A stretch of 64,000 bases of DNA from Antedon mediterranea (Eukaryota > Echinodermata > Crinoidea > Comatulida > Antedonidae): the NCBI RefSeq assembly GCF_964355755.1, contig NC_092675.1:23662412-23726411 (forward strand). The letters are read 5' to 3'. This document shows positions 18,301 to 57,800 of this stretch, piece after piece. Position numbers and translations under genes: made by a program. Below the pieces are notes generated by a model. It ran no database searches and had not been told where the DNA came from. It was given only the letters and a program-made list of their open reading frames with translations. The first letter of the stretch is position 1. Every line of letters begins with the position of its first letter.

Positions 18301-18590
18301 ACTCTAACATGATGAATGTAAATGCATCGACTTTGCACAGGAGAGAGAAATTTAGAGCAAAAGTATGAATAATGGTTTTAAACGTACGTGACACCAATAG
18401 TCACAATAACAATACTAACTATATGAATAGAGATACATACCATAGATTTTCCAAACAGATGAATGCTTATTTGTGGAATCTTTGTGGAATTTGCGAGTGT
18501 TAAAGACACCGAGCCGCAGATACTTTCACCAACTCTGTATACGGCTGAAGCATTGTCTAAGCATATTGATAAATCTTGTATTCGTCCCAT
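15339..18590 (-). CDS. Alpha-arrestin (arrestin domain-containing protein), copy B
   Basis: Eight exons: 18590-18441, 18175-18052, 17788-17722, 17584-17434, 16998-16890, 16564-16311, 16005-15813, 15448-15339; 385 residues ending in TAG. Phases equal those of copy A at every junction, and exons 3, 5 and 6 have the same length (67, 109, 254 nt). That equality decided the acceptor of exon 5 (16998, not 16992). Hallmarks: MGRIQDLSI, GESICGSVSL, LRFEFVLPS, LPTSFEGEHGSIRYWLDAE, CCSKPQQLYFNLVLERRSYSPG, LQMPPIPPS, CIPVLIGTVPL. Exon 2 gives a shorter acidic insert (ENDEEEDKTDDTNND) ending YKIIWG, matching NQILWG in copy A. Exon 7 is longer than in A and adds a Ser/Gly-rich stretch. Both copies end with a YIPMYSY motif. 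There is no PPxY. The role is inferred to be adaptor-type, as for copy A. Confidence 0.92.
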
Positions 18591-20569: not shown

Positions 20570-23500
20570 CTACATTTGGCATTCCAAAACTTCATAATAC
20601 TCTTCGTCGTGCTTTAGCTCTTCGTAATCGTTTGAAGCATTTGACAGTCCTTTACTAAGTTTATCCCTCAGAGAAGATAATGAAGATTTTCGACGTTGAT
20701 TGTTTTTCGCTACAAAACTTGGTTGATGAGCCAACCCATTGTCGTCTGCGTTCCTGACAACGTCAGGCATTGTTGCATACTCTGATAACTGTGAATATGT
20801 TTGATCTGCTGGTGATAGGGTAAAATATACAGGTGACACCGGGGAGTCGGTGTTAGTTAAATTGTGATTAATTGGTGAATTTCGAGATAAACTGCAGTCT
20901 GGTATGTCATCCACATCTTCGTATGTTGCGTCAATATTAACACTGTGTCTATATGGCTGTTCTTCTTTAGCTTCTTTTGGTAAGGATGGTAGACGTGGCA
21001 ACGACTTACCACGTTCTATGGGTGTCATTCGTTGTTGAAATTGTATTCCTTGTTGTGTCTTCGGGGTGCTTGTAAGATCTATGGCACCTAATTCAGCAGA
21101 ATTGTTCAAACCACCCTCTTTAGGTTTGGTTAGTGTCATATAACCTGATGTTGTCATCAGTCCGGATTTTGATTCTTGAAAACGTTTGCGTTTAGTTTCA
21201 GCAGCAACTATTTCCACTTGCACTTTCTTCTTGCGACGATTTCTGAGAAATAAAATACAGAGTTCATGATTAAAAGATTTATATCATTGTTTTTGATAAC
21301 TATAATTAAATTCGTCAAAGTTACTATATTATTTTGGAAACAAACGAAAGTTTGTCAGATTATTTTAAACTGTATTACAGTTTACACTGGTTTTCTCTTC
21401 CTCAATTAACGTATTGATAACAGTTCAAAACTCAATCCAAATCGTCTCTTGGTTTCAAAGTGTAATTTGTTCAGGAAATGTAACTGTTTAGTTTACGGTA
21501 TACAATACGTGACTTAAAAAACTATACCAACCTTCTAAGTAAGCAACAGTGAATTATAACGCTCATAATGATAATGAAAACCAAACCAATGATTATTCCA
21601 ATTAAAATCACAATCAAGCTGTCATTGTCTGAAAAATATAATACAAATTATACATTCATTATTAAAATTTAATTTTGGAATATACTGATTGGCAGTAGGC
21701 CTACTGTATTTTTTAAAGATATCATCATGTTCTTTTTATTTGTAATTGTAATTACTATATATGTTGTACTCATATGTATCATCAAGGAATGAAAATGAAA
21801 TGAAAATTGTTTTCGTTGAAGCTCTACTGATGAAATGTATATCACGGAACCATAGTGAGAATAATTTGAATACAATTTGAGTTTATTGGTTCACGTATTG
21901 ACTAAGGTCAAATTATACCGTATAGACTTATATGCTTACTGTATAGTTTTCAGCAATACATCTCAAAGATGTATTGTCTCCCAGCTGAAAAAATAATTCT
22001 TAAACATTTTTTTTGTTAATCCACTTTCACCAAAAATTGGATCGAAAAAATGTAATTTAAAGAAAAAAATAGTCAAATTGGCTGCCAGCCAATAGATTTT
22101 TGGTTGAATTATAACCATTTTTTTTCTATGAAAGTGATTAACTTTATTAAAATTACAAAATAATATATTAAAAGTCTGATTTAATTAATCTTAATTTTTC
22201 AAGTTTTTGGGAGACAATAAATCTTTAACTTAACTGTCATAAATAAATGTTTTAAGCTTAGTCAATGTGCAATGTGTATTCTATAAGGAATTCCTGGTGA
22301 TTTGAAGTCTACTATTTGTGTAACATTCTGTAAAGAAATGATGGAATGATTGCAATATTATTATTAAACTCTGTAAAGTAGTATTTTGATATCATTCTCA
22401 CTTAAAGTTTGAGACAACTGATACAATTTTAGGCACGCGTGTGTTTTTTTTCCAAACCATTGTAACATGTCTGATGTCGGAAAGGCGGTAGATTACAAGT
22501 AGGTTGTTCACATTGTGTTTCCTTTGTTTACTCTGCTGGGACGACAACAACTATTACGACAATAGTGGGTTTTATATTGGATACAATAAGGCAATAGACC
22601 TTGCGATTGTGGGTTTATGAAATGATCCACTTTCTTTCAGACAATTAATTTATTCACCATCTGGTATAAATATCCCATGGCATCAGTCAAGTAGTTTTCA
22701 GTTTTTAATACTTTAGTAAGAAAGAAATGATACACTTAATAAGTTAATTAACCCACAGCATTGTCATCTTTTTTCAGTTATTTGCCTTTGGATTTATATA
22801 TATTTGTATATATATATTTATATATTCTTTGCCTGATTTGTTTATATATAAATATTGTATATTTATATATATATATATGTAACTGAAAATAGTTTATATG
22901 GGCTATATATTTATATTATATTTCCTCATCTTTATCGTTTCAAATTAATTAATTAATATTTCAGTATATCGCCGGGCTGTTTAGAATTAATGTTTATTGT
23001 CTGATGAGTTTGTGTGTATGTATGTATGTATATGTGTATATATACATATATATAGGTGTGTGTGTACATATATGCATATATATACAAATAAATAAAATAA
23101 TTAATTAATGTTAATGTTCTTTGCCTGATTTGTTTATATATATAAATATGTATATTTATATATGTGTGTAACTAAAAATAGTCTATAGTATAGGCTATAT
23201 ATTTATATTATATTTCCTCATCTTTATCGTTTCAAATTAATTAATTAAAATTTCAGTATATCACCGGGCGGTTTAGAACTAATGTTTTTTGCCTGTCGTG
23301 TTTATATATTATATTAATGAAATGTATTATTTGTAACTTGTACTTACTTTTTTTAATACCTTATTCATTTGTTTTATTATTGAATGAAAGAAAGAAAATA
23401 AATGTTTACGTTGAGTTGAATTACCGGTGATTTATTTTTAAATATTTGTCTTGTGTTAGTTACAAGGGACCGTGTCTACAAGTAGTGTTAGTTAAAAGGG

Positions 23501-26500
23501 ACCGTGTCTACAAGTTGTGTTAGTGAAAAGGGACCATCTACAAGTAGTGTTAGTTAAAAGGGACCATCTACAAGTAGTGTTTGTTAAAAAGGACCGTGTC
23601 TACAAGTAGTGTTAGTTAAAAGGGACCATCTACCAATAGTGTTAGTTGAGAGGGACAGTCTACAAGTAGTGTTAGTTAAGAGGGACCATCTAGTGTTAGT
23701 TAAAAGGGACCATCTACAAGTAGTGTTAGTGAAAAGGGACCATATACAAGCAGTGTTAGTTAAATGGGACCATCTACAAGTAGTGTTAATTAAAAGGGAC
23801 CATCTACAGGTAGTATTAGTTAAGAGGGACAATCTAAAAGTAGTATTAGTTAAAAGGGATCATCTACAATTAGTTAGTTAAAAGGGACCATCTACATGTA
23901 GTGTTAGTTAAGAGAGACCATCTACTAGTGTTAGTTAAAGGGTCCATCCACAAGTAGTGTTAGTTAAAAGGGACAACCTACAATTATTGTTATTTAAAAT
24001 AAGAATTTTGTTCATTGAAAATCACTTTTTTATCGGATTGAATGCCTTTTTGTAAACTTTCTTTCAGAACTGGTCACTAAAATATCAACTTGATCATCAA
24101 CGTTCAAACCACCTGAAATCATGCCTATAAGGCCTCATTATTCGACTTTCTGGGTGTAACAATTTTAGTGATTTATTGAGCAGAGAACACAGAAGTAACA
24201 TTTGGTTTAATTATTCTTATAAATATGATATACTGCTTGATTCGGTATTCGGAAATGATATGCGTTTTGTTGGTAGGCGGTCAAGGGTATATTGTCACAA
24301 CAAAGAAGTGGGATTTACCAGTTTGACGTCATCAACTAATTCACTCACTTCAAAGTTCATAATATTACTATTTCTATTGATAACATAGTAAATACCGCAT
24401 TCAACAAAAGAGATATTGATTTTAAATGTTACAATGATAATTTACATAAAGGTTTTACTTTAATGTGTATGTATTTGTTTTTTAAAATTACGTTTTTAGG
24501 GATTTATTGCTGTTTGACTCTTTGATTTTTGACTTTGATTCTTTCCACTGACTAAGATTTAGAGTTCATCTATGCCTGTAAATCTAAAAGGTAGAATGAA
24601 TTTGATCTCATGTGGATTTCGATCAGAGTGTCTGATCAAATTTACGTGTTCTTGGGATAGTGTAGGCGACCTACCATTAACCTAACCAACACCGTCAATC
24701 TTAATCAGTCCAGGATTTTTACAAAACTGGGTACCCTGGTATGTGTTTAGAGGTAATAGGGGCTACCTACATCTTTCGAAGATCACGATAACAGGGTAAA
24801 TATACCTTTGGTTGTTGAATCTGGGAAATTTGTAGTTACAGCGGAGCTATTTTGTGACGTCAGTGATGAAATTCGTTCTTTAGTTAAAGATGGATCAGCA
24901 GTTATCGGTGATTGTGTTGTTGGTCCTTCAGTCACTAATTTAAAAAAATACAGTTTTTAATTAACAAAATTTTAAAGAAAAACAAACAGAATTGAAAATA
25001 AGAAAATGATTTACTTTTTTACGTGGATTGAAAATGAGAACTATAAATCTTTCCAGGTTTTTAAGCTTATTAATTTAGTATAGTAGTGGTACTGGGCACG
25101 AGAAGAATTACTAGGGTCGACAATCAGCAGGTACCATGTATTAATTAAACTTAATAGACATTAACGGGTTTTGTTTTAAATTTTAACTATTTTATTGATA
25201 TTATTCATTATTAGACATTGATGAATTTAAACGTTTTCTTGCTGAATATAACATAAAGTCGTACAATGTCAAGCTACCCTAATTATTTATACAATACTTA
25301 CAAACATGACCACTTCGAACAACAATATCATCAAGGGCTACACCACAATTACTACCGTTTACGGTTGCTTCAAAATATATCTGTCGAAAAAAATGTCAGT
25401 GTTTGAAGTATTTGAATAATTACATATATGAATACAAAGTATATAAATGCGACCAAAAAGCTTTATTATCAAGTTAGGCCCTATTTAGTAGAAATAATTA
25501 AATACTCGTCTCACTAAGACCCGGAACAAAAGACCCAATACAAAACAATAATTTATTATTATAAGGCCTATTATCGGTGAAATTATAGAAAACAAAGTCT
25601 TTAAACATTTGGAAATGTGTAACTCTTTTCCACAAGAAAAAAATAATTGTAGTTTTCAAAACAAAAAGGAATAGTCTAACTTAAAATAAGTTTAAACACA
25701 AGATACATTTTACTTTTAAAATATAACGAACTGTCTATTTTTACAATTAAAATAAATGTATATATTGAAATAAATTAATAATACACACATTGTTTTCTTA
25801 ATAATTAATGTTTGTGTCAAAATGTTCAATGTGGAATATTTATCTAACGACAGGTCTACAGAATAACGGAAAGGGAATCTCGTCTCTGTCTCTCATAGAG
25901 TATTCTATGAATGTTGCTGAGGGCAAAACACCCTGACAAAAATAACGTCATAGTGTGCAAATACAATATCTGGTAATGTTTAGTCTAAGAGCATTGTGTA
26001 TCCGGCGATGGATAATTTTAACGGCTATGTTGTGGTGAACTGTATGACATATCACAACAATAATTATATTGGCATTCATGTTAATGACTCCGATTTGCGA
26101 GTGTTGTGCTTTGTTTCCAAAGTATCCACGTATTTCTACCAGAATAAATAATGTTAACAAATTTTTTATGATTGTTTACTTTCATCAATTTTTATCATTA
26201 AAAGTCAATGTATAAATATAGTTAGGGTTATTTGAGTTTATTCCGGCCAACGGTCGACTTTATTTCGCCTTCTTAGGCATATTTATTTTGCATCAACAAA
26301 ATATTAATACATTCTTAAACAAAAACAAAATATCTTAAAGAAAGAATGAGTCTATAACATGTGGCATGCTGATTTTCTTTCTGTATTGTGTACAACAATG
26401 GACAGACAAAAAATAGTTGATAGATCTTTCACCCTACAAATTCCTAAGCATTAATATAGTTTAATCAGTATCTAGCGACCAAACACATTTTATATGCTTA

Positions 26501-28882
26501 AAGATGTTCAGATGTTCACTATAATTTTATATTTGTGTCTTTTAATTTGGCCAAAGAAAAAACTGCATATTCAAGAGTAGTTCATCTTGTGCATCAATAC
26601 ATATAATACAGGTGGTTAAATATTTTAAGTATTTCAACAATACACGCTTGCATACCTTCTCACCTTGATTGAGCTATGCATATCATAGCAACATATATCT
26701 TTTTTAGGTATACCTCAACTATTAGATTTATGATACTGATTAAATTAAAGAAAAGATGATATCATGTTTGAATAAAATCAAGAACTCTTTACATGGATAT
26801 GGTCATCATTTAAAAACTCACTTACCTTAAATGATTCCTGACAATTCAAATATATATTTGTTGTGATCCACCTATCAAGCTTATCGCCCGTTCTTTTCCA
26901 TATTGCCCTTGTTTCATTTCCACAAGCAAATACTTTTAGTTTGGGATACTCAAGTTGAACAGGTTCGTTTAGATCCCACATGTAATAGGAAAAGGTCAAT
27001 GTACCCTTTCCTGATGGTAGCTCTAACTCTGGTATATTTGCTATTGATGTGTAAACACCGCTTTCCCGGTTCCAAGAATGCAGCACTATAAATAAACCTG
27101 TAAAATAGATCTTAACTTAGTACAATTCACAAGGCATGAATAATAATAATAATAATAATAAATAACATTTATAAAGCGCAAGAGACAAAGGTTTCAAAGC
27201 ACTGTGTTTTCCAAGATCTGTGCAAGTAGTAGCGTGTGATTATGCTTCTCTGAAGAGATGAGTTTTGAGTTTAGTTTTAAATGTGATTACAGATTTTGAT
27301 GAGCGTATTTCGAGGGGTAGAGTGTTCCAGAGTTTTGGGGCTGCGACAGCGAAAGCACGATCACCGTAAAACCGAGTTCTGGAACGGGGTCCAGGTTTTA
27401 GAAGAAGTCTGCTGGATGAACGAAGCGAAAATGTCATTTGAATTTCGTAGTAAATATAGGTTGTTTGATTGTTATTTATAACACACATGAGTGACTATCT
27501 GACTAATTTCGTATCACGTGGTGTTCAGTATAGTTTCGTAGTAAATGTACATAAACACACTTCTGTGTTAGGCTATTGGTCCATGGTTTTCTCTTGCGCT
27601 ATTTGCCAACTTTTTAATAAAAATTTAAATAAAATGAATTTCTATGTCACGGTAAAAGCTCTATTTTATGGTTTTATGAAAAAAACGTTATGTTAGTGAC
27701 TGTAACTTAATTGTAAGGTACCGGAAATATGCCTAAGAAGTTGTACTGATTTTATTTACCTTTGACATCCGAATTATCTCTGATTGGTGGTTGTTTGTTA
27801 AATTGTGTAAGTGACCAGTGCAACACAGATGCAGTTCGTACGTCGATTTTAATTTCGCATTGTGTGATATTTTGTAGGTTGCATTCGTATAATACTAAAA
27901 AAAAAAACAAACAACATGATTATAACATTCAAAGAAAAACTCGTATAGTCGATATGAGAATATAAAAAGAACACAAGAAAATAAATGTGTAGGCTACTTT
28001 AGCCTATTAATAAAATTAAACTAAACCTTAATTAATTATCTTAGATATATCAATTACATACAAGAAACAGAGTACTTAATTCAAACTTTAAAAAATGCAA
28101 AATGAAACAGCCGGTGTCCAAGGGGAAATTATTGAATTCTAAAATTCTAAAATGTTTATTAGGCATATACTAATAATAGTATGAAATAATATGGTCCGGG
28201 GCGAATTGTATCGTAGGGGCGTAATTGTGAATAATAACATAGATATCCTCGCAAACAAAACAACAAAATGGTCAACATGATGATTCAGTCAGGCAAATTG
28301 AAAACATCGAGTGAAATAGCATAGCATCTGACCACAGGTGTAGACCACCAAGGATTTAATAATATTATTATTACAGTATAGGCTATGTTGTTGATGAATA
28401 TCACCAAGAAATTTCATGATATCAAGGGAAAGACGTTAGACCTTCTACAAATAAATAATTTTAATTATTTGATTACCTCCCTTCTGCGGGTTACAACGTC
28501 CGGTTCTGATTTGTATTGTAGGGTTTATTTGAAAAATACTCAGTTATATCAAATTTGATTTACAATGATTTTGAAATATAGGCCTATATTTTTATATTTC
28601 ATAGGCCTAAATAAAACAAGATGGATTCTATAATATTAATTAGTTTCCTAACCACGTTCAAATGCTGAAGCTGACGGGTTGTATGTATAAATTAAAATGT
28701 TTCCTGTTTGAAGCAAATTGTATTAGATAAAAATATCCGAGTTTAACACTACAAAGTTGATAAAATAATAAGATAGCCTACTCACCCGATCCATATGTAT
28801 TTATTATTGCAGTAGTTTTATCACAATTTACCTGAAGATAAATACTGGAAATTATTAACACAGCAAACACAAATATGTTCAT
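20570..28882 (-). CDS. MAM-domain single-pass receptor with two ITAM-like motifs (receptor 1)
   Basis: Seven exons: 28882-28786, 27894-27760, 27097-26826, 25380-25302, 24934-24806, 21628-21532, 21242-20570; 493 residues. Exon 1 gives a signal peptide (MNIFVFAVLIISSIYLQVNC). Residues about 34-194 form one MAM domain: YECN start, LTFSYYMWDLNEP, W followed by a second W, IYFEAT and GVALDDIVVRSG at the end. MAM is an extracellular adhesion or recognition fold. Residues 195-237 are a Thr/Ser/Pro-rich stalk, and about 241-264 a membrane helix (LIVILIGIIIGLVFIII) followed by a basic stop-transfer stretch (RRNRRKKK). The 223-residue tail is rich in tyrosine motifs: YMTL (304), YEDV, YFTL-x6-YSQL (409-422), YATM and YEEL-x6-YEVL (476-489). 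No catalytic domain is visible, so signalling would depend on SH2 proteins. I do not recognise an orthologue by name. Confidence 0.88.
20585..20626 (-). other. ITAM-like motif 2 of receptor 1 (YEEL-x6-YEVL)
   Basis: In-frame codons in the last exon read YEEL-KHDEEY-YEVL, residues 476-489, four codons before the C-terminus. The spacing of six and the two leucines fit the ITAM consensus exactly. The acidic residues around it are also typical of ITAMs. Confidence 0.75.
20786..20827 (-). other. ITAM-like motif 1 of receptor 1 (YFTL-x6-YSQL)
   Basis: In-frame codons read YFTL-SPADQT-YSQL, residues 409-422, followed by EYATM. The spacing fits the ITAM consensus. It is 53 residues before motif 2 in the same tail. 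Confidence 0.7.
21965..22226. mobile_element. MITE of about 262 bp with TATTGTCTCCCA termini
   Basis: AAAGATGTATTGTCTCCCA at 21965-21983 pairs with TGGGAGACAATAAATCTTT at 22208-22226, 18 of 19 matching. It has no coding capacity. It is intronic in receptor 1. Part of its interior recurs inverted at about 41225-41340. Confidence 0.75.
22751..23300. repeat. AT-rich tandem block with duplicated units of about 0.3 kb
   Basis: TTTGCCTGATTTGTTTATAT starts one unit near 22828 and again near 23121, with a third, decayed start at about 23288. Each of the first two continues through TTCCTCATCTTTATCGTTTC and TTTCAGTATATC(A/G)CCGGGC. TA and TG dinucleotide runs fill the rest. It lies in the large intron of receptor 1. 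Confidence 0.8.
23455..24000. repeat. 30-bp minisatellite, about 18 decaying copies
   Basis: The unit begins GTTAGTTAAAAGGGACCATC and ends TACAAGTAGT; some copies have ACCGTGTCTAC in place of ACCATCTAC. Copies are cleanest around 23520-23800 and fade to the right. Because the unit is a multiple of three, both strands stay open here (LVKRDHLQVV-type on plus, TNTTCRWSLL-type on minus); those readings are repeat artefacts. It is intronic in receptor 1. Confidence 0.92.
27120..27440 (-). mobile_element. LINE 3' end: reverse transcriptase tail, 3' UTR and TAA repeat
   Basis: On the minus strand about 65 codons down to a stop at 27240 read ...FYGDRAFAVAAPKLWNTLPLEIR...FKTKLKTHLF, a widespread C-terminal signature of non-LTR retrotransposon ORF2 proteins. 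Then come about 90 bases of 3' UTR and an ATA/TTA run at 27138-27160. It is 5'-truncated and lies in the same orientation as receptor 1, in the intron just upstream of the exon 27097-26826, about 40 bp from its acceptor. Confidence 0.8.
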
Positions 28883-33899: not shown

Positions 33900-36800
33900 T
33901 CAAACAAGAGAGTAGTCTAAAGTATTTTCAATATTAGTATGTGAAGGTGCTGATAGATTATTAAGTTGTGTGTCAATTTGGTAGCCAGAAAAGCCCAAAT
34001 CGTTAGGGCCTAAGCAACGATAGTCGTCTGAATCAGATTCATCCGCTTGGTAATCAGATAATCGAATACTATCTATTGTCTCTTCTTCCCGCGCACACAA
34101 ATCTAAGTAACTATTAACATCCATTCTACTAGTAGCTTTTTCAGAGATAAAGTCCTCCTCGTCGTCCGCATGATAACTTTCTAGTTCATCTTGACCTGGT
34201 TGAACTGGCTCTGTATTTTCTTGCTTTTCGAGAACATAATATTCATGATATGGTTGAATATTAAATTCACTATCTTTCTGATATGTGTCTCTTTGATTCG
34301 CTTGTGATATAACATCAGGAATATGATAATAACCAACTTGGTTTACTATATCCATCCCGTAAGTTGGATTAGCGCCAATTCTCCTTGTGGAATGTCTTCT
34401 AAACTGATCAGGATCCATATACACGGGCGGATCATAACTCCGCGCATGCGCCGGTACAGTGTTACTATTAAAGTGAAGCGGAACTCTTTTAAAACTAGAA
34501 GTAGTGGAAATGTTTTGTAAAGACATATAAGCTGATGTGTCAACTTCAACTACACCAGTGCAAGCGACTTGTAGTTTGGTGTAGACGGACGGCACCGGAC
34601 CTTGTAGCTCTACATAACCTGCAGGGTCATATAAATACGGGTTCATGACCCCGTCTACAGACGATCCTGATGATACCTCAAGCTCCTTACGTCTTCTAAA
34701 ATATAAAACAAAAAATTAGCATTAACAATATGAATAAAAACAACTGTATATTAAAATCAGGGTGTCAATTTGAATAAAATCGAGTAAGATGAATGGAACA
34801 GACAATAAAGATTACTGAAGATTGGTCAGTGGTCCTGTAAAAATAACCCCGATAATAATTACATGTTAGAAATACAATATACTGTATTACCTATTCATGT
34901 ATGTCATCGTTACCATCAATCCTTTTGTAAAAATTAATTTACTGGCAAACAATTGAATAGCAGATGTTAAGAAATATTGAAGTTGTAAAATCAGTTTCGC
35001 TTCAATGGGGCATAACGCCTCAGTAAATAGGAAGTCTCAGAGCACTAGAATGAATTAATTCCAAATAATTATACAAAGCGTTTCTCTCTAAACAATTGTG
35101 CAAGCAGTTCGGGGGAAAAAGAAATTAAAAAGCAATTTATACACAGGGCTGGCACAGAGAGCGATGATAGCGAAGAGCTGTTCTCACTCTTCAACTTTCT
35201 CGAATGGCTAAGATATAGAAAACATGCAGCTTAAGAAAGTAACTGAAAGTAACAGCTTTGTTGATCCACATCAAAACACCAGTTTATGGCCTAAAAGTAA
35301 ATGCTTTGGTTATTGGGGACTAAAGCAAGATTTGGTGGCGCGAGTGGCGGTAACAATATTGATAATTTGGACCGGTAATTGCACTCTTTTGTACAGAGTA
35401 CAAATTTAGTAAATACTAACATATAGGCCTATGTCATTTTTGTCACAATATATATAACGGCGTCAATTTCAATACACATTTTAAACGTTATGCTAACGTA
35501 ATGGAGACGTTTACTAAAAATGCGGCAACAATTCGTTAAGCATCAAACGATGCAACATCATCGGCCCATGCGCAGTAAGCTGTTATTTCTAATATATAAA
35601 ATGCATTGAATTATTCGTGTACTTGCAATAATTGACAGTTGGTTGAGTATAATACCATGAATTGTATCGGGTGACAAACAATAATTAAGGAGTTTAACAT
35701 TTAGATTATTCACATAGTTCTTTACTAGTAAACAGACGTTCAGCCATATAATAAAGTAATGTTAATTTTGGTATAATGTTCATATCATACATTTCATTAC
35801 AAGATATTATGATGTAAACATTGATAGGCCTATGAATAATATTTAAAAAAAAATGTAATCCAAGAATAATAGCTACATATTAGTAATATTAATTATACAA
35901 CAATGAATTATCTATAACAATTAACATTAACACTTTACACAATGTTCAAATGGTGCCTTGAATACTGCTATAATTATCAATACATTTACATTAATGTACA
36001 TTTTCTCTTCATACGAACCTCGTATCTAGATGAATGTCAATACAGTAGTAAGTTAAGATCTACCTAGTGACAGCTTCAGAATCGTGTGTATACACGTATA
36101 TACGGACCAATCAGAAAGGCCTAAATAATTATAAAAGAATTTAAAGGCTAAACGCGTATTGTGCTAAACGTGTTGGTATAGGCAACATGTTAAAAAATCT
36201 AAACAGCTAAAAGTATTAAAAATGTATCAAGGAAGTGGGTACATATGCCTACGTTTAGAGTCTAAACACATGGACAAGCTTAACTGTGAGAAAAGTAGGC
36301 AAGCTCGATGATAATCTACGATGGTAACTAAATAATAACTGGAGTTGAATCATTCAATACTCTAAACAAACAAAAGTCAATAAATCATATTTTTTTTAAT
36401 TGATTGGCAACATTTATTCTCAAACAAAACTAATGTACCGACAAGACCATTGATGCCGAACAGTTGATGTTGATTGGAAAGTGTTGTGATAACTTAGGCG
36501 AGTATAGGCCTATTCTAAAAAGGGTGACACAAAAAAGACGATCATGGAAACTAATGCAATGTTAACTAATAATATTAATATTATTAATTATTAATAATAA
36601 CTATAATATAAAGCAAACAGCACACAACTATCTTACTTTTATTTTTAGTGACACTATTCTAAAAACACTTTGCTCTGTCTACATAATTTAAACGGTTACT
36701 ACACCGATCTACAGATTGTTGAAGTACTGAGTAGGCCTACTCTAAATAAATAACATCATAATTCTATCATTTGATATATCTTTACAAAAAGAAAAAGAAA

Positions 36801-39800: not shown

Positions 39801-42800
39801 CAGATAGCATACACCCACACGATCACACTAAGAAAAGTTCAGTGACACCGCGTTCTTGACATGTTATTATAAACATAATTTCTTTTTTCCTGGTTGCAAC
39901 TAGATATTGCATGAATTATTTTCTAAGCTTAGGAAAGTTAATAACCATCCCACTTTGTAATTACCCGTCCACAGTTGACACATATCTAAATACACATGTA
40001 CACACATGTGTATCTCTTTGAGTTATAGTGGATATATAATTGCTGCAAGACTGCATGCATTTTATGAAACCGTTTTAATATATTCATTATCAGGTAATAT
40101 AGATGAATTACTCCAATAACCATTCAATACAGTATATACTGTAGACCTAATATAACTTACGATTTTCATTGCTGTGGCATCAACTACTGGCTCTTTCTTT
40201 AGTAGTTTATGGCTATAAGTTTTCAATATTTACCACCAAGATTAAAGGTAGAAAAGAAATATTAATTTCCGACAATGATCATTTGGATCTATTAATCTTA
40301 ATGTTCTATTTATATTTAAAATAACATGCATTTGTTGTCCTTTATAAGGATATAACTAAATACTGAACATGCAAGTAATTACTTCAAAATAGTGCTTTAA
40401 ATTTTAATACAAATTTTAATATTTTATTTTGTATTGTTTGTGCCGTTTGTTGGGAGTATAATGTTTCGTGTTCAATACGGAAAATTTTATGTTACTTCTT
40501 CAATAGTAAGTAATAAGTTAATTAAGTTAATTGACGTACTATATTAAAATGCAAATACATTTTTACACTTATTTATTTTTGTTATACATAAAGTGGCCAT
40601 TAACATATATTATATAATTCGAATCTTTACAAGAAAAGTTATTTTTCTTACATATAGGCTATTAGAAATATTATATAAATGCTACTCAGTTGTTAATCTT
40701 CTTTTAGCCATTCCTCATTTGATAATTGCTTTTTAGTATATAGAATGACTTTATTTTCGTAGGAGTTGATACTGAATGAAAATCAATATATTTCTTACAA
40801 TAATACAGTGCACTTATGCCTTTTATTACACATTCCTAAACCCTGTATTACTGTATATACTTATGGTCGGCTTATGGAATAACTTCATCGAACTCGGAAA
40901 TATTATATAAGTATAAGAGACCAATATTGTAAAAGTTACTTAGGGAAGATTAAGACACTAAATAAATCTTTCAAACGACAGTTAACTCAAAATATCTAGA
41001 TTGAGCTTTCAACATATACTAAGGAGAGAGTGCATTTCTCAAACTCACTCTAGAAAGATTGAAACTTAAAACTCAACAGAAAATGTGATTTAGATTAATA
41101 AAAAAAGACTTAGAATAGGCCAATCCGCAGTTGTAATAAAGTTAATCTCTTCTGTTGCAGAAAACAACTTTAAAAAATAATGTTTCACTTAAGGAAAGAC
41201 AAAATAAACTTTTAATTCAACTAAAACCCCATTGACTTCCAGCCAATTTGACTATTTTTTGCTTTAAATTACAGTTTTTTTTTTGGTAAATCATTATTTT
41301 TTCGATCCGATTTTGGTCAAAGTGAATAGCTATTATGTGACATTAAAATGCAATATTCAACAAAAACATTTAAATAAATATATATATTTTTTTTAAGGAA
41401 CAATGTTTTCAGTAAAAGTCACCATTGCACAGAATGAATTTCTAAAATTGAGATTTTAAAGTTACTTGGGGAATATTACCATGGCAGGAGTTTTTCAAAC
41501 TTGCCAATAATTGGTAGGTTTTTAAAATCTTCAAGGAAATTGTGTTCTACAAAACCTCTAAAGGAAATTGCGAGTTTTATTAAACTTGCCAAGGGAATTG
41601 CGAGTTTTCTCAAACTTATCAAGGAAATTGCGAGTTTTTTCAAGGAAAATGAATAATGTTTCTCAAACTTGCCAAGGAAATTATGAGTTTCATCCAAACT
41701 CACAAGATAACTGTTGCGTAGTTTTCTCGAACTCATTAAGAGAAGAGCAAATTCCTCAAACTTCCCATAGAGAAAAGTGAGTTTTTCTTAAATTTAAACA
41801 GGAAAGTGTGGGATTCTCAAACATGCTAAGAAAACGTGCAAAATTTACTTAGGACAGATTGCATTCTTAATTCAATTGCGCGAAGATTGAATTTCAAAAA
41901 CTCGGGGACGGCAGCAAGGGAAGAGACCGAGTTCCTCAAACTCATGCAGATACGATTGGATGGAGTGTAGATTGTTGTTTTTATAGTGTTGCTAGCCATT
42001 CGAGTTTCGACTAGCTTCACTAAGTCTGTTTACTGTTATTGTATTATTCTTTATTTTCAAACATATCATGCAACTCACATTATTCAATAAAAGAAATATC
42101 ATTTTTCTTAAATCACTTACCGTTTACGTATAAAACAAATGAATCCCAAAATTACTAGTAGAAGTGCTATTGAAAACACTGGTGCAGTCAGGCCTACAAA
42201 TAGTATTAATGTCTTTTCTGTAAATAGAACAAAATAAGAATAAAAGAAGGCATTTACACTTAGTTGTTTTCTGTGTAAATAAGAAAAGAAGCAAGTGTTT
42301 ACATTATAAACAATTAAGAGTGTTATAAATCATAGTTAATAGTTGAAAAAAGTGTTTACAACGAAAACGTAGTAACGAAAAGTGTTTTTAAATGATAAAA
42401 TAATATTTATCATTAATCAAAAACGTAAATGAATATACATCTAAATTTATAATTAGAATTAAGTATATTGTCGCAACTTCGCATTATACTTTATTAACAA
42501 AACATTTAACAATAATAATGCCAACTTGACGGTAGCAATGAAATTGTAAGATATATGTGTAATTTGTGAAGATCCGATTACGATATTCAGTAGTGACTAG
42601 TAGTAACTATTAATAGAGACATTAGCAGTTGTTACTATAGTGTAGTATGTACAAAGTGTATTTAGAAATAAGAAATGTTCATGTAATAGCAAATAAGACT
42701 TAAGATTACGTCGGAGACACCGAATTTAATAAAGAAAACAATTTATAGAGATCATTACTATGTATCATGGATGTAAGGATTCAATGTTTTGAGTCTCATC

Positions 42801-45800
42801 TTACGACAGATAGGTATGTTGACCTACGTCCCAGCTAGCATACCCATAACCCGAAGGGATGATAACGAGAAGGAAACTATTTTTCCATCCGCTTTCTCTT
42901 TCATAACCGGCGGCTGTTTCTTATGCTTCTATAGCAGTAAAACGATTTATGGTCAATTACATTGCATAGAGTACACAAATAATTTTAGAATCTAGATTGT
43001 AAATACTTTGAATCTGTTGTGAGATTATTGAATTAAATTGAAATCTTCGCGATATATAAAACAATCTTAAAAACTACTGCATGTGATGTTGGATTTCATA
43101 ATGATATTAATTGAGGTTTCAAATAAGGTAGGGTAAAAAAATAAAACAAATACAAAGCGGGTATACTGTTTAACACACTTGAATTTGGATCTTGGTTGCT
43201 GCCGTCTATCTCCTGCATCACAGACCGACCGACGGAAGGAGAAGTGGATATTGTTGAACCATGTAGCGCCCTCATTTCACCATTTGTTGTACTTGTAGAG
43301 TCATATATTACTTCAGACCCAGCTACTGACGTCGATGGCGACCTCATTGCCATCGTTGTCATGGCTACTGATGTTGATACGTAAGGCACGCTTTCTGTCA
43401 ATACAATAGAAAGGAAATGGTATTTGCAATTATGTATATAATGTATAATTTCCTTATCTAAAATGTATTAATAGTGCATATTCAATACTAATATTATTTA
43501 ACTACTTTCTAATATTAGAAATATAAATATATGACGTAATTGATAATACTTAGGTTAACAGTTAGTATCTGTCTGTAGAGATTTTAAATAGTTAATAATT
43601 AACAAAACCAAATGTGATCATTAATTGATCATTTAATGTCATATCACTTCTTCAATTATAAACACCATCGGTATACAATATTTCATCTTTATAATATCTT
43701 AAGAGAAGATACCCCAGTTAAACACCAGTTAAAAGTTGAGAACAACTGGGTTAACTGTGATTTGGTTATTGCAACTGCTTTGCCAGAACGGTAACTGGTT
43801 TTCTCTTACTTGATTTCCATCAAAAGTGGTTTTTAGATATGTATTGAAATTTTTGTTAAAATAGAACTGAACCCGCGCGCTATATGGTATGGTACTTTAC
43901 TACGTATACACTCAGCGCATAACAGAACTAATTATGTTAATTTACTACATTGGTACTCATACGCGATCTTTAAAGGGGAATAAGCATGTGTCTATATGCC
44001 AACAATATCCTAATGGATCAACGTGCACGCGAATGTCTCCACACTCGTTTTGACAAGTATGTTATTTGACGCCATTGAGTTGTTTGTTGGTACTTTCAAC
44101 CTAATAATAAATAACGCTGACGTTAGGTGTAAATGAGAGTGTGTGTATACTTTAAATCCAATCTTGCGGCAAGCATGTCATGAACCAGAATAAATATATC
44201 TTGCACATCACGTAGTAATCCTTCACGAGTCGTCTATATATTCATTAGAACTGCTATGCATGCGTCAGCCGTCAACGAACACGCAACCATGCAGTAGAAA
44301 AGGCACAGAGTAGAGAGAACATGAATCAGAGAGAACAAACAAATCAAATAAATGAATATTGCTATATATTATGATAAAAGAAAAACAACAGAGATCCGCA
44401 GACATGAACACAATATTTGCATTTCTGAACCACTGGTCAACTTTTTTTTCGCGACGTGTTTATGAGTGTAATGGTACAAAATAATGGCAAGAGGTGAATG
44501 ATGAAAGGTTATATTTCAACGAGGCGAAGCCGAATGCCATTATTTGTACTATTACAAGAATATAAAGCATCCATTATTTGTTTTATATAACATCTAAATA
44601 GATTCCTGTCATTTGAAACAGATTGAATAAAATGTATGCCTAGGCCTACATTTAATCCAAATTGAACAGTAAATATATTTGTTTTTGTATGGTTTTTTTT
44701 ATACATTAAATATTATATTTTTTGGGATTTATAAACACACCTACTGTAGTGTTAATTTGTCAACAAACGACCAAACAATCCTAGGCTTAGCCTGATACCG
44801 ATAGGCCTAGCCAGGCTAGAAAGGCAGGGATTCGATTACAAAATTTGGACAGGCAACTGTAACTTATCTAGGCTAATTCTGTTTTTCCAACGATTTCACG
44901 TCATTAATTAATCAAATCATAAAAACGATCTAAAGCTAATTTATATGTTTTTTTCCGTTTTATCTAAATTAGTACATAAACTCTCAAAGAATGTACTTTC
45001 GTCGCGATAGGCCTACACTCGTGTATCAGAAATCATCGCAGCGACAATTTTAAAAAAGGGCGGCGCTGTTGGATTTATAAAGTAGGCCTAATGGTCTAAA
45101 AAAAGATTTTTAAAACGCAATTTTGTTTTTCGTAAACGAAAAAAGAGGGACAAAATTCTATTAAATGACCATTCAATAGTGCGTACTATTGCACGCTATG
45201 TGACCCACAATGCGTACAATAAAATGAAAGGAATTTATTTAGGTGTTATATAATAAGTAATATTAGGTTGTTCTTTGTAGAACCATATCATATACATCCA
45301 TAATCATCAGGAGAGAAACGTTCGCGATCGTTTGAAATAAACTACACTACTAATTATCATTATCTTAACGCTCTGCGTAAAGTATGAAACCGTTATGTTA
45401 TTAATCAATATACCAGAAGGGGAATGAACTTGGCCTTAAACTTTCGATTGAACCCAGCTTGTTTGTAAAATGATTCCCCTTAACGATGACAATGCAAACA
45501 TAACAGATGAGCTGTGTCTCTACACCGGGGGCGAACATCAATGGCAATGCAATAGAAACATCTTAAAATAATGAGATTTAATATAGCTACTGTGTTACAT
45601 TACTGTAAACGTTATCCTTTAATTAATAATAGCCTTACGAATATTAACCTACCATCAATTGAAAGGTCAAGCAAAATAATATCATCGATTGCAATGTCAC
45701 TGTCACGTGTCCCACGAACGCCTTCAAATAAAACCTAAATGCAAAAATACAATAACAAGTCATGTTATAGTTTGTTATTATAAACATAATCAATGCTATA

Positions 45801-48800
45801 ACATACTGCCCATTCGCAATGAACAGAATTAACCCAACGTGACATTGGTTTGTACATTATCGTAGAGTTATTAGAGAACGTGAGTTTCGGTTCGACCCTT
45901 TCGAAGAAACCCTACATGTGTTTGAATCCATCAAGGAAAGTGTATTATAACAACCACTTGAAATAAATGAAATCGATAATCAGCATTTATCACCATACAC
46001 TAATACATAATATGCAGAAAACTAACATAAGATGTAAGTATAATATGTATTATTTTAACTTAATTAACACCAGAATTGAATAAGCCATTTTGTTACAGTA
46101 AAAGATGTTCCAAAATTTACATGATTCTGCCGCAAATAAAAAATTATATTCTATACATCTTTAAACGCACGAATAACGAAATATCTGCTGGTATATTCTT
46201 AATATGGCGTATATTCATAACGCATGCATAAAATCCTTGATAAATGCAGAAATAATGCTTTTCGTATCGTATATCAACGAACATTAACATAAAAAAGCTG
46301 ACCTCAGTCAGAGTAGTGACAATAATATACGAACGTAGCATAAGCTATCTTGAGTGGTATAATTGATTCATATTAAAGGATAATTTTATCGTGACGTCTT
46401 GGGAAATAGTAACAAATTGTCACACCTTGCTTAATCTCAATTTTCTTCTGTACCTCACAAATCATTTTGCGTAGGCCAAATCATTTCTATGAAAATCCAA
46501 CATTCTCGAATTTAAAGAGTTTTGTTTAATAATAAGAAGGAAACTGCATAATGTTGGTTTATATTACGAAATGTCTTAATGCTATTTTTCAATCATCAAT
46601 CCAAATGTGCATATTGCTTTATTACACGTTCAGACCCAACGTAATTGTACATAATGTATTGTACGGTACCAGCATATTACTGCATTTGCTATCTTCACAC
46701 TTTGTATATCCTCCATGGTATATCCTCCATTAAGGGGATACTTATTTCGGTCTTGAAGATTTCCCCATATAATATGGGTTCTACTCTAAGGTGTACCACA
46801 AATTCATATACATATTAGTTACTTCATATTAGTTACTTCATATAAGCTTATTATCTAGACCTAGGCCTATAATAGTTATATTTAAAATTGTCAAAATATT
46901 GTATATAATCGCTATTATATACATTAGGACCCAACAAAGTGTCCTTAAATATTCGAGTGTCCCTTAAATAGAAGTTGCCCGTAGTGTTTAAACAGTTTTA
47001 TATATTGGAAATCTAAATTGAATTGCTATTCTTATTTTGGAGACATTATCATAGTTAGATTAATTGATCCTTTCTTTTAAAAATAAAGCATGCCTGCTCT
47101 TATAAAGGTTGTTCTTATATAGGTTGTTCTTATATGTACTTCTGAACTGAATAAGCATTGTCGGTATATTTATGTTAATAAACGCGAGGGTAATTACGGA
47201 TCCGTAATTGGAAATTTGCAAAACGATAATGAGGTTTATGCCAATTTCTTATTGTTCCGTATGTCGTTTCGGTTATACGTACATTTAGTAACACTACGTG
47301 ATGTTACTGAATTCAAGATTCACATTATTTCACAGTGCGATACTAATGAGTAGGGTGAATAGCAGCGGGTCTTTAGCCAAGCCTGAAGTGATGGTTGGGT
47401 GTGAACACGCGAATTCGCTGTTGATGTCCTAATCATTCGCAACTTGAAGTCAATTAAATGACTATTATGACAACACTATTCCATCTTTTACATATTTTTG
47501 TTTAGGTCTAATGCATTTTCAGTACAGTACAGTTTGAATTACCTACATTAACCAGTAAAATTGCCACACACACTGTGTAACCATTATAAACACAAAACAA
47601 ATCGAATCCCATGATAATATGGGATTCGATGGCAAGTCAACTTACTAGAGGTGTAAGGAAAGAGTTCCAATGTGGTAAATTCCATGAGTTTAAAGAATTA
47701 GAATGGAATAATAGTTATATAAAATCAGTTGCATGCATTAATTGTATTTTTCTCACAATTAAATAAACCGTTGATGGTTAAAAATGAGCTGTGAGCGCGC
47801 GCCTCAAACTTGTGTGCAGTGCCGAATTGTTAATTTCTTCACCCAAACATTATACAATCGCCAAGAGTAACAGGACACTTGGCTAATTGAGGATCTTCTT
47901 CTAGGCCTACTACTGTAATACCATTGACATAATTATATGCCAGAGAGAGTTTAGCTACCTCCGTGTTGACAAATTGACATGCTGCAGTAATTGGTTATCA
48001 TTATGTTATATTGTATAATTCATAAAATCGGCGCCATGGCTTCGCACAATGTTTTACACGAGAAGAGGAGAAACACTTTCAAAATAATTACATTTTCAGC
48101 AACGATAGTTGTTGAATTTACGTTTTACTGAGTTGGGTACATGATAAATAGGTAATAGAGATACATACTTGGAACTGACCGGAACATCCGAATACTATTT
48201 CCGCCATAAGCCATCGGCTACCTTGTGAATTTGACTTTATCCATGTTGGTTCGCCAAGAGTATAACCATTTTGTTGACAAACATACACCTTAACAATATT
48301 TTTAAAAAGAAAGAAATAATAGAAGCTATTTCGACGTATAGTATACTATTTCACACGCCTTTTGCTAGATTCTTAAACTGTACCTTTCTCACTTGTTTGT
48401 GTACTGTACAAGTTGAGTAAAATATACAAAAACTTGTCCTGGAAACAATAGTTACAGTAATTCTGAAGTTCTTTGGTTGTTGGTTTTGTTTTTGGAATTT
48501 TTAGCATGATCTATGAAAAATTAATTTCTATATTTATAAAATATATTTCTCTCTTTGAACGTATACCGTCTATATTTGTCTAATCAGAGGTAGACTTGCC
48601 CCAAGTCTGTATTGTCTTTTTTTTATTTATTTGTTTTTATTTCGACCGCGATTTTTGTCTAATATTTTGTCTAGTATACGTATGAAACGCCATATGTGCC
48701 AAAATATTTATCTTTTTACTAATATTAAGACAAAACTCCGTCTGGAACCCAGACTAAATTAGAGGATATGTTTATTATGTATAGGATGATGTATTTATTC

Positions 48801-51800
48801 ATTTCTTTATTGTGCTAGTGTCAAAGCACTGGTACCACGTGTGTCAATGAATCAAATGAAACGGGTAAAAAAGCATTGACAATGTTACGCGGATGTTGAT
48901 AAATACCATGAATGTATATTTTAAAAATGACCCTACTCATGCGTTTTCCTTAAAGTTTCACAAAATAATTGAGGACATTGACATCAGCAGAGTGGCAATA
49001 CATAACTTTTGTAAAGTACTATGTTCGTCTTGACGGGAAAATTATTTACATTAATTTGTAATATTTCATATTACGAAAATTATTTGAATATACAGGTCAA
49101 TAATATTTCTATGCATAATTTATCATGTGTTTTTTTTTGTATATAATGTATTGACAGCATTCATTCCAAACAGATAAGTTTATCTCCCTTCCGAACAAGG
49201 CCGACCTGTGACGAACGATGCCAGCATGATCTATGATTATCCCGTCATGCTTAGCGCATTATGATTAACGCTGATTTATTATGCATATTTTAATAGCAGT
49301 AATAAACAGCAAATAAATAGTGAGATATTGAGTTCACTGCTTTTGATATTTAGCAATTGAAGTTAACGAAGATTTATTATTTATTATTTCATAAATAATG
49401 CAATCTTATGAGAAAGACATTAAGTAGAGAAACGTGTTAAAACGATGCAAATTTACGTTGTACACAGAAAGACGACGAGAATGACATTCAGTTTGTAGTG
49501 TAGGCTACACAAACCTTTGTCATACGGCACTTTTAACAGTGAATTTGTCAGGATAAGGCTTATTTTTAGGAACAAAAAATAAACTATAATATTATCGTAT
49601 ATAGCCTATCTATAGTTAGTTTTTTAGTACATTCGCCATGAGCATTGTACCGTAACATATATCATGTGTACATAATCGTGCCCATTCTTGATACGGTCTC
49701 CCATATTGTTACATTACAGGCCACTGGAGCCTTATCTAACCCTACCCTGCATCACTGCCCCACACGTAGGCCTACTGTTAAACACATGTGACATGTGATT
49801 ACAGAATTTTGCCTATGATACTAATCACTAGACACGTCACTATTCGGATGAGCCACGGTAATAGAGTTGTGTGGTTGTCACCTTACCAAATGGAAAACTT
49901 GATATGTTTGTATTATTCGACTAAAAATAATAATAATCATCATCAAATATCGGTTACGTAATTTACTATTCCATTTTTTTCTGAAGTCAGATGAGCGTTG
50001 ACGAACGCATTAGGACATAAAAACAATAGTTATGATGAATTATTTATTTTGAAATGCAAATGAAGTAATTAAAAGTGCAAATCTGTTTAATGGAATCTTA
50101 TTATAAAGATTAGCATTTTAATTCACTTACTTTAAGGTCACCGAGCGAATCTGGTGGATCACGGTCTTCCATATGATAATAAAACCTTAGCAAACCTCTA
50201 CCAGCCGATAACTCTAGTTTGTCACCTATTTGCAGTATAGCACTGTCACCTCTTCTGTCTGCATTCGATTGTGTATACATGTAATGCCCTAAAACATTAA
50301 AACAAAATGCCTACAGAGTTATTTTCACTTTAAGAATATAAATGGATTTATTTTATTTAGTATAAATCTAGTACTGTACGATTTTGTTTCGAATCGTACA
50401 CGTCGATCTCTATCTGAAAATTTTATGAGAGTGGAACACAACGAATTACATGTTAACACGTTAAAAACGCCAATAATTATTAAAAATAAAATTAGCAGTA
50501 TCATTTTTGTTTTCTTTTACTAAAGTGTTTATATTTGGAGATAGACTATGGAGTGACAGGTTGTTCATGCCTAAAGCACGGTTCGTGGTGAACAGTTCTA
50601 AAGTGGCAATTCGGTTTTCGAATGGGGTCTGATGAAATCTGTTCAATATTTGTCCATTCTTGTTTTTTTCCCTGTCCATCTTATGGGCTGATGGCGCTGT
50701 TTCTTCATTCTGAGGGGTTTCCATGTATAAAACTGTCCGTACAATATAAGTATCTATCGGCGTTCCATACACGATTCCGGATGTACAATGTTGGCCCTAC
50801 TGTTCACCGTTCTGCTGAAATTTGAAGTTGGATTGAAGTTAGAGTTCAATACAGCAATATTCTTCTGATTGCACATTGGAACCACGGAGTACTGAATTGA
50901 TTCCATTTAAGTTGCTTTCAGGCACAATACAAACATGTATGTAACAGTATAAAGATAGCATCGATATAAGGATGGGATCGTCAATGTGTTTTACTGAATT
51001 ACCAACGGATTTGGACCCAACATGTGTACGAACGATGTTGTCAACTATACCGATAGTCGATTGCTATAGCTCTTAATGATTGTATATATTTTTTCCCATT
51101 TTCACTGGCGTAATGAGGATTTGTAAGACGAGATAATTAAATGAGGCTGTTAATTGGAAGAATACATCATTTTCATCAAGAAAACACCAGTTGCAAAGGA
51201 AAACGTGCTTGCCTATCAAATTAAAAGGCATTGACCAATGAATATAATTGAATGCACACGTTTGATATTGTTATAAATATTGTATACTGAAAATTATTAA
51301 TTATTTAAAGACAACGTAACGAAAATAAACCCAGCCCAACCGAGATCCTAACCCGGAACTTTCTGCTTGCAGTGTAACAAAACACCTTTCCAAGCCTACA
51401 GTACCACCATAGAAATGATCTTCAAAACTTAGTTTTTCTGATTGTAGATGACAAATGTTAAACGAAAATTACATTTCATTATTTTAGGCAACTCGAGATT
51501 TTGAAAGGCTAAACCTGAAGCTGAAAGGGGATTTATTAAATGTTCACGAGACATTAATGTTGTTTTACCTTTAATATTATGATAAACGACATATTGGACG
51601 ACAATCAGACACCATCTGACAGCAGACGACGTCCAATAATTCAATAACTCGATTTTTTTAATTAAGAAACTATTAGAAAGAGTTACATGGTGTCTCCAAC
51701 TACGTTATTCTGAAATTTAATTTCATATTAACCTTTAAAATATGAATTTATATTTTTGTATATATAATTCACCTTGGGCCAATCAACTGAGTACGGCGAC

Positions 51801-54800: not shown

Positions 54801-57800
54801 GTAGGTACAGGTAGGCTATATCTCTAAAGTACGATATACTGTAAAACAAACAAACTCCAAGTTTTAACCTTCGTTTGTCATCTTTACTAAATATGTTTTA
54901 AATATGATTCGCGGCATATGTGATGTTTTTACTACAATTTGAATTTTAAAACCGTCAAAATGAATGAAAGAGTGGGCTGAGATGGGCATCTACAGGTAAG
55001 TTTAGGCTAGGCCTAACAACTTTTATTTTAACAAAAAAAAAAGCGTTACAACCGATTTGTGTTGTAGTATAATCGTGAATGAAATGTGGCTACATTTGAA
55101 TAAGATGATTTTACTTTGAATAAATAATAAATATTTCCTTAAAATCTCATCAAGTCTGCCAATGGAACGAGCATGAGTCACGTGTCCACGCCCCGTAATT
55201 TTCTTTTTTATTCAAAACACGATCTCTAGTCCTCATTGGATTGTTATATTTCCCCACATCACAAACAAACCATTACACGGAAACGAGTGCTCATTAAAAG
55301 ACGTAGTTTCAGATCGCTTTGTCCATATTACTTTTGAGAAATATATATTAGATGTGTTATTCATAGCTTTCATTGTAAATAAGCTGATCAAACAAAATTT
55401 CTGTTTTAAAAACAGTAAAAATTGGCTTTATTATCATGCATTGTCTATTTTGCAAAATCAATTAATAATAATGATGATAATATTATTAATTAATAATCAA
55501 ACAAAACAGACACAACATTTAAAAACCAAAACTACAATATTATAGGCCTACACTTTAATGTGGATTTGTAATACTGAATGTTCAATGAATATTCTTCGAA
55601 GAATTAATGTACTGTATTAGTAAAATGCCACAGTATACGGTTAACATTTAAAATAAAAATAAAAAATATAATGAAAGGTTTTACTCAACAAATTTCATAT
55701 TAAACTTAACCGAGTACTAAATATGTAGAACAACTAGTGTGTGATTAGAACAGCATACAAAAACTACATACAACACCATTTTTGATTTTTTTTTCATAAC
55801 CACGACGATAGCCATTTGGGTAAAATCGAAAATATTCCCCTTGCTTTTCTTGAGAATCCATCTGAGACATTGTATGTCGTCTGATGAATCCATTGTATTT
55901 CGAATCGTTGTGTCTGAGTGCATTGTACGTTATGGATGAGAGAATTCCGTGGTTGTTTATTCGTATTCATTTACTCTACCTATCATAAATCACTTTTCCA
56001 TCTAGACTTTCACTAATAAAAATAAACCACGATAACCTATAATAACCCTGAATCCTTATACCTAGTAGAACAACATATTTTGAATTTAAAAGAATAAATT
56101 GTGTTTAGTTTTAGAAAGAATGGCGCCGTAGTTTTAAAGGATTTTACATTAAAATAAAAAATATCGAACAACCATTAAAATGTCTTAATGTAATTTATAC
56201 GACAAACTAAAAGCATCAAAACAAATTTGCATTGTATAGGCTAGGAAAAACGACGTTCCATTTTGTATAGTACCAGTAACGCATAATGATTAACATAGTA
56301 CACAAACAATTACAATCCAAAACTATTTTACGCATTTTACTAGATTAGTTGGCACTATCAGTAGGCCTACAATGACAACAACATTTCACGGTGAATGTTT
56401 GAGGAAAATCCTTTCAGTAAGGTTAGGTTGTGACGTAATCTTGCCAACAGACAGAAAGTAAACTAACAAACTGACAAATAAACAAGGCCCATTGCATAAC
56501 CTCATTAGCGAAGGTAACATTTGCGAAGGTAATACAGCTACATAATATATTTTTTCAGCATCGTCATCAGTAAAGTTTAAGTATATACATATACATATAC
56601 AGAGTTACATAGGTATAACATGTGACGCATGTACCATAAGCATTAACCTATGACGTTTGATACATGTGACACTAGTAGGTATTACATACTTTACATAATA
56701 CTAGACAGATAATACCATGTGTGAAGATAATTACAAAGAATGGGGTGAGATAATAGTACTGTAGGCCTACTCACTGTACTGTATTTTTGGATTTGAAAAG
56801 TTCGAGAGTGATAATTAATTTGTTATTATCTAGTATAAAATACTGTACCAGTAAAAATGAAATTATATGTACAGTGCAAATGTGAATAACATTGATAAGG
56901 ACAAGATTTTACGAATGATCATCATTGTCGTTGAATTTAATTTACACAAATGCATTTTTAATAACTTGATATATATATATTTGAATATTATGATTCATTT
57001 TATTGTATAGTTTTTATCACGCACCTGATATATTCCCATAGGTGTGGTCGCTGCTGGGACCAGAGTATGCTCCGCCAGTCAACCCTCGCCATTTCGTCCA
57101 ATCAAAATTGTCATTCGGATAACTCCATTGTGTTATTTGTTCACAATTTTCTTCAGATTCGAAATCACACAAAAATACCTCTGAAAATTAAACATTAAAG
57201 CCAAAATTAATTTGAATTATAATGCATTCATTTGATAATTCCAATTCGGAAGTGCTCGTCATTTGCAGTACTATATAAATAATCTAACAACATCTGGTAG
57301 AACTCATCAATGATGATGCACATGATAATATATTATAATCTAACTATTGTACATTTTATAAGGCAGTATTATGAATGACCGTATTTAGAGCAAGTAGGTA
57401 TGTTTTATGATTGTTTATTCATAATAATTTATATATTCATATTATAATATTGTTGACTTCAAATTCTTTATATGATTTATCAGCAACTCATTTTTTTTTA
57501 AATAAAAAAACATACTAATACTATGGTACAGTAGGCCTACTACTGTACATAATCCACAACGGAATTGGAATTGGTCAATTGTTTGGTAAAACAATTTGAA
57601 AATGGAAACATTGTCTTGTCCGATGCAAAAAGTACAATAAATGCTAAGTTAGAGCGTATACAGTATTTAAATGAAATCGTGAATTATAATAGTATTCACT
57701 TTTAACGTTCTATTACGTATAAATTATATCCAAAACACGGCCAAGGCCGCACGCGTAAAGCATATCTTTATGATGTCTTTTCAGTCGAGCTGCTATCATT

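Follow-up and report, generated by a model that had tools for sequence, protein, structure and literature searches.

Results

Two tandem genes predicted to encode MAM receptors

The window, meaning the whole 64-kb stretch of DNA that was analysed, contains two neighbouring genes on its minus strand, here called gene 1 and gene 2. Gene 1 comprises seven exons running from 28882 to 20570, which join into a 493-residue protein with a single stop as its last codon. The exon borders are GT/AG with matching phases, exons 2 to 7 starting in phases 1, 1, 0, 1, 1 and 2, and the protein reads in the order signal peptide, MAM domain, Ser/Thr-rich stalk, uncharged transmembrane helix and single-exon tail. 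The exons of gene 1 are as follows.

28786..28882, minus strand: exon 1, start codon and signal peptide (MNIFVFAVLIISSIYLQVNC...), donor GTGAGT (from sequence)
27760..27894, minus strand: exon 2, N-terminal part of MAM (Pfam MAM and gene model)
26826..27097, minus strand: exon 3, central part of MAM (Pfam MAM and gene model)
25302..25380, minus strand: exon 4, C-terminal segment of MAM (IYFEATVNGSNCGVALDDIVV) (Pfam MAM and gene model)
24806..24934, minus strand: exon 5, Ser/Thr-rich stalk (gene model)
21532..21628, minus strand: exon 6, transmembrane helix with no charged residues, CCLLRR at the inner border
20570..21242, minus strand: exon 7, 223-residue cytoplasmic tail with two ITAM spacings, SGYMTL, YATM and YEDV, stop

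The preliminary description of this DNA had reported the tail exon at 20570-21242 without giving its strand. The exon proved to be real and to lie on the minus strand, where one open frame holds both motif pairs together with SGYMTL. The sole stop of this frame is its last codon, while the other two minus-strand frames contain 17 and 14 stops and the plus-strand frame that was tried contains 20 and is not open. Exon 7 is 673 bases long, follows the acceptor TTTATTTCTCAG, ends with the stop and encodes 223 residues; its GC content is 0.401 (window 0.318) and falls in the order GC1>GC2>GC3. The MAM ectodomain that had been assigned to this tail was also borne out, as the upstream exons join in phase and the Pfam MAM family (PF00629) matched residues 55-191 with 44.7 bits (E 1.6e-11) against a curated cut-off of 26.4. 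The other nine Pfam families listed for gene 1 all fell below their curated cut-offs. Matches of gene 1 to PDB sequences were weak, the best (0.046) being an unrelated membrane protein, with enteropeptidase, a protein that contains a MAM domain, at 0.15-0.16.

Two further features were seen within the introns of gene 1. A repeat of roughly 30 bases (like TAACTAACACTACTTGTAGATGGTCCCTTT), read by eye, occupies about 23440-23980 in the intron before the transmembrane exon. An ORF on the minus strand of intron 2 (window 27240-27494) contains APKLWNTLP and presumably resembles the end of a LINE reverse transcriptase.

Gene 2, which was absent from the preliminary description, is a tandem paralogue directly upstream of gene 1 and extends from 60348 to 33900 on the minus strand. 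It was traced from an open tail at 34695-33900 on the same strand as gene 1, and its exons, listed below, join into 575 residues with a single stop as the last codon.

60258..60348, minus strand: exon 1 (proposed), signal peptide MIVLFKRLYASLTSILLCSSLMVKTVLC, donor GTGAGT, phase 1
57025..57180, minus strand: exon 2, N-terminus of MAM (CDFESEENC...FDWT...GPSSDHT) (Pfam)
50131..50288, minus strand: exon 3, MAM (Pfam)
48169..48288, minus strand: exon 4, MAM, matching the second half of gene 1 exon 3 (Pfam, blastp)
45653..45734, minus strand: exon 5, C-terminus of MAM (VLFEGVRGTRDSDIAIDDIIL) (Pfam)
43167..43394, minus strand: exon 6, Ser/Thr-rich stalk (gene model)
42121..42217, minus strand: exon 7, transmembrane helix (gene model)
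33900..34695, minus strand: exon 8, tail of about 265 residues with 20 Tyr, YVEL-x7-YTKL and SAYMSL, stop

The Pfam MAM match of gene 2 (PF00629) was stronger, at 89.9 bits (E 2e-25, residues 35-196; curated cut-off 26.4); the query had E at residue 31 where the DNA gives Q, a position outside the match. The start phases of exons 2 to 8 (1, 1, 0, 0, 1, 1, 2) repeat the gene 1 series with an extra phase-0 intron added within MAM. The proposed exon 1 is the weakest part of the gene 2 model, since it ranked third in hydrophobicity among the 12 candidates listed and was picked by eye on its shape and consensus donor. Both genes share the architecture of signal peptide, MAM, stalk, transmembrane helix and single-exon tail, and their homology runs from the latter half of MAM as far as the inner border (blastp default E 8.4e-12, 22% identity; E 1.15e-12 with composition adjustment off). 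In the Pfam searches neither gene showed a phosphatase or kinase catalytic domain or a further ectodomain of the known MAM receptors.

Tyrosine motifs of the two tails

In both genes the signal peptide, the hydrophobic exon and the basic border lie in frame, which places the tail motifs, as read from the sequence, on the inner side of the membrane. Tail 1 carries YFTL-SPADQT-YSQL and YEEL-KHDEEY-YEVL, both with exactly x6 spacing, and tail 2 carries the single pair YVEL-QGPVPSV-YTKL with x7. The ITAM consensus given in the excerpted text of PMC12058738 is YxxL/I-x6-8-YxxL/I. This core consensus occurs twice in tail 1 and once in tail 2. An extended form of the consensus adds an acidic residue three positions before the first tyrosine (-3); this residue, which lies outside the core, is missing from all three motifs (S, S and P are found there) and counts against the ITAM reading. 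The ITIM consensus (S/I/V/L)xYxx(L/I/V) gives one candidate fit in tail 1 and four in tail 2. SGYMTL, previously placed near the membrane, is indeed present in tail 1, its Tyr being residue 36 on a numbering that starts at the basic border and gives the tail 225 residues.

We compared the pairs with several chance models. Of 200,000 composition shuffles of tail 1, 1.16% contained one or more ITAM spacings and 0.004% (P 4e-5) two or more; for tail 2, one or more appeared in 4.3% of the composition shuffles (P 0.043). In a background of 419 other ORFs, each at least 60 residues long, 12 contained a pair and one contained two, which amounts to 0.084 pairs per 225 residues, and two pairs in one tail would therefore be expected in about 3 of 1000. 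The tail 1 pairs thus exceed chance for the tail alone, though this tail was selected from a larger reading; gene 1 offers good evidence beyond chance, gene 2 by itself a marginal case.

The tails are rich in tyrosine motifs of other kinds as well. There are 9 tyrosines and five YxxL/I motifs in tail 1, 20 and seven in tail 2, and between them the tails carry YATM, YEDV, YMDP, SGYMTL and SAYMSL. YxxL/I motifs are in excess over shuffles in both (P 0.001 for tail 1, 0.002 for tail 2), and the chance of pairs is therefore raised. When the five YxxL/I of tail 1 were kept and placed at random, at least one pair formed in 24% and at least two in 2.0% of placements; with the number of tail 2 kept, at least one formed in 40%. 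The earlier statement that two exact spacings are unlikely by chance held firmly against composition and less so, at 2.0%, once the number of motifs was kept. The same excess and the same variety of motifs would be expected if the tails were general phosphotyrosine docking platforms for Grb2, SHP-2, PI3K or PLCgamma, with the ITAM spacing a by-product of dense YxxL and the partner not Syk. What speaks against such platforms is that the pairs are spaced exactly x6 twice in gene 1 and x7 once in gene 2, while no ITAM spacing occurred in any of 15 other Tyr-rich receptor tails of the same genome (189-344 residues, 9-18 Tyr), a weak control of non-independent tails, since a single Ig gene cluster supplied 13 of them. 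On balance we consider the docking explanation unlikely, but worth keeping in mind.

YxxL can also be read as YxxPhi, the rule for a sorting signal whose unphosphorylated form is read by AP-2, and all five YxxL of tail 1 fit it too. The proteins would then be internalising adhesion or scavenger receptors, which we regard as improbable: one or two YxxPhi are enough for sorting, to which the spacing of a pair is irrelevant.

Relation between the tails

The similarity of tail 1 to tail 2 was not above that of shuffles, as 1312 of 3000 shuffles reached the observed top score for the best 8-residue matches. Two blocks that are attractive by eye, TTSGYMTL/DTSAYMSL (TSGYMTL/TSAYMSL) and YATMPDVV/YYHIPDVI (YxxxPDV), were dropped as evidence of homology because shuffles give the same score. 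In a search of the genome (18 contigs, 354 Mb), each tail matched itself alone. Since the tails are no more alike than shuffles and the tail 2 pair is near chance, the paralogue gives no proof that the ITAM was retained by selection. Genes 1 and 2 have their architecture and motif class in common, and an ITAM that was inherited, regained or accidental would be compatible with these sequences. The least probable explanation, that of an ordinary MAM adhesion receptor with a fast-evolving tail matching the motif accidentally, draws on the choice of the tail out of a large sequence, on the background ORFs with pairs and on the dissimilar paralogue tails, but we find it very doubtful in view of two pairs in one tail plus one in the sister gene.

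Candidate signalling partners in the host genome

The preliminary description had proposed a Syk-type tandem-SH2 kinase as the partner of the ITAMs, and a Syk orthologue was found in the host genome, with both SH2 domains and the kinase matched. At C6:536-545 kb, on the minus strand, two SH2 domains and a kinase are ordered as in Syk. The first SH2 domain has SYK as its best PDB match (E 6e-38), the second aligns to the second SH2 domain of SYK (E 1.4e-30), and the kinase, joined from two pieces, matches ZAP-70 (3.9e-45) and SYK (1.9e-44). The top row for the kinase was a chain labelled EGFR (9p9u, 7.4e-61), above ZAP-70 and SYK, and this chain was the sole row in a narrower kinase search; it is unexplained and counts against the assignment. 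One Arg in each of the two SH2 domains aligns with an Arg of SYK, and we take these to be the phosphate-binding residues. The N-SH2 domain of SHP-2 was found on C3 at 14.10 Mb (E 5.4e-78), and SH2-kinase pairs at C6 3.43-3.45 Mb may be Src-family genes. Syk is also named among sea star egg transcripts in the excerpted text of PMC11593052.

Search for further members and other MAM and Ig genes

Scoring of 150 of 436 candidates gave at least 152 MAM matches in the genome. By eye, we read 9.9 kb around MAM exons on each of C10, C6, C3 and C1 and recognised no membrane receptor with an ITAM tail; three of the four stretches presumably show CUB, LDLa or trypsin-type motifs, and the one on C3 something else. 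The other MAM clusters may hold further members of the family. No MAM domain or ITAM tail of a third gene was seen by eye among ORFs of at least 75 residues in the 40 kb past the window end, a length limit that MAM exons of gene 2 size could escape; the ORFs there were LINE-like and transporter-like. The best non-self match of gene 1 in the genome was to Ig receptors on C7 (E 4.3e-4), over the end of MAM, the stalk and the transmembrane part, and may be compositional.

Dense one-strand arrays of MAM exons were observed at C7:20.59-20.70 Mb and C11:14.94-15.11 Mb, and these are possibly giant multi-MAM genes. A tandem cluster of Ig-domain receptors lies at C7:3.267-3.654 Mb, many of them readable throughout as a single ORF of about 500-785 residues. 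A member of this cluster gave at least 100 matches at E<=1e-4 with 73 of 352 candidates scored, these being matches rather than genes and some containing stops; among those listed, 98 lie within 3.267-3.654 Mb, all on the plus strand, and 2 at C7:8.91 Mb. Eight of the nine members fetched end in LTYA(D/E)I...LDYATV, two ITIM/ITSM-type motifs, the ninth being cut by the end of its stretch. These motifs recall, we presume, the tails of SIRP and Siglec.

Other features of the window and genome

Arrestin-domain exons were recognised in the window on the minus strand between 9199 and 18593 and probably belong to two tandem genes.

9199-9708 and 16218-16574, minus strand: Arrestin_C (Pfam)
17344-17607, minus strand: Arrestin_N (Pfam)
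13122-13352 and 18378-18593, minus strand: pieces of Arrestin_N, below the curated cut-off (Pfam)

The palindrome TAGGCCTA has 48 sites in the window with varied flanks, 87-fold over base composition, and three other palindromes have none. It was found in 9 of 12 further loci, 1 to 6 times each versus 0.03 to 0.11 expected, and was absent from the other three (L012, L013, L045).

Elsewhere, C2:7.83-8.21 Mb contains 12 Hox-type homeobox matches, of which 11 share the plus strand; the exception is the second one counted from the posterior end, which is inverted. Two posterior homeodomains presumably resemble ambulacrarian Hox11/13, and the cluster suggests an ambulacrarian. Gene loss and inversions of single genes are described for the more canonical ambulacrarian Hox clusters in the excerpted text of PMC6307216.

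Discussion

Based on the gene models and motifs above, genes 1 and 2 are best explained as tandem, self-contained type I receptors of a small family, with a MAM ectodomain and a Syk-coupled ITAM, a reading to which we give close to an even chance. The wider proposal is somewhat more tentative: an ambulacrarian family may use MAM, and not Ig or lectin domains, wired to Syk via ITAMs in its own tails with an ITIM-like site in the same tail, the tails turning over fast while the ITAM is kept or re-evolved. The architecture, the MAM domain, the ITAM spacings, the host Syk and the spacing in the paralogue all favour what had been proposed for gene 1; the paralogue tails give no sign of conservation, and an immune or clearance role would be a putative one.

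Under the Syk-coupled reading, a ligand would cluster the MAM ectodomain, a Src-family kinase would phosphorylate both tyrosines of the ITAM, and the tandem SH2 domains of the host Syk would dock on the doubly phosphorylated motif. Docked Syk would then start calcium, actin or transcription signalling, while SHP-2, recruited to SGYMTL/SAYMSL, may act as a brake, and PI3K may be drawn to YATM. The ITAM would sit in the receptor's own tail and a partner chain would be unneeded; the transmembrane segment of gene 1 is without a charged residue and therefore implies no adaptor chain. Roles in recognition, clearance or adhesion sensing would all be compatible with such sequences.

Several known systems resemble these genes in part. 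The spacing YxxL/I-x6-8-YxxL/I is that of vertebrate FcgammaRIIA, CD3zeta and DAP12, whose ectodomains are, in contrast, Ig or minimal. CD3zeta and DAP12 are signalling chains of larger complexes, whereas FcgammaRIIA, like Draper, carries the ITAM in its own tail, as proposed for genes 1 and 2. Draper/CED-1/MEGF10 likewise have a self-contained ITAM-like tail, acting via Syk/Shark-type kinases, but their ectodomain is EMI/EGF without MAM and their spacing is wider. RPTP mu/kappa, neuropilin and ALK share the MAM ectodomain and single transmembrane helix and differ in having further ectodomains and tails that are short or carry a phosphatase or kinase. CD3zeta is described in the excerpted text of PMC12058738 as having several ITAMs in a single chain. 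Among invertebrates, the excerpted review PMC11999971 describes the oyster IgSF receptor CgIgIT2, which combines five Ig domains with a transmembrane domain and a classic ITAM, and cites a paper whose title calls it an inhibitory receptor. It is similar to genes 1 and 2 as an invertebrate single-pass receptor with an ITAM, and unlike them in its ectodomain of five Ig domains in place of MAM. The excerpted text of an amphioxus LRR receptor paper (PMC10199209) contains no mention of ITAM.

The preliminary description knew of no family that pairs MAM with ITAM, and none was found among the literature matches listed, which come from a collection with few subscription journals; some of those for MAM and ITAM dealt instead with semaphorin 3A in bone, crustacean virus receptors and neuropilin-1. 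The MAM-ITAM pairing may thus be new, a novelty that is provisional, while ITAM receptors outside vertebrates have already been reported. If the Syk-coupled reading is true, ITAM-Syk signalling would be attached to yet another type of ectodomain outside vertebrates, in the apparent sister group of chordates, and this would bear on whether immunoreceptor signalling arose as different sensors were connected to a single old kinase.
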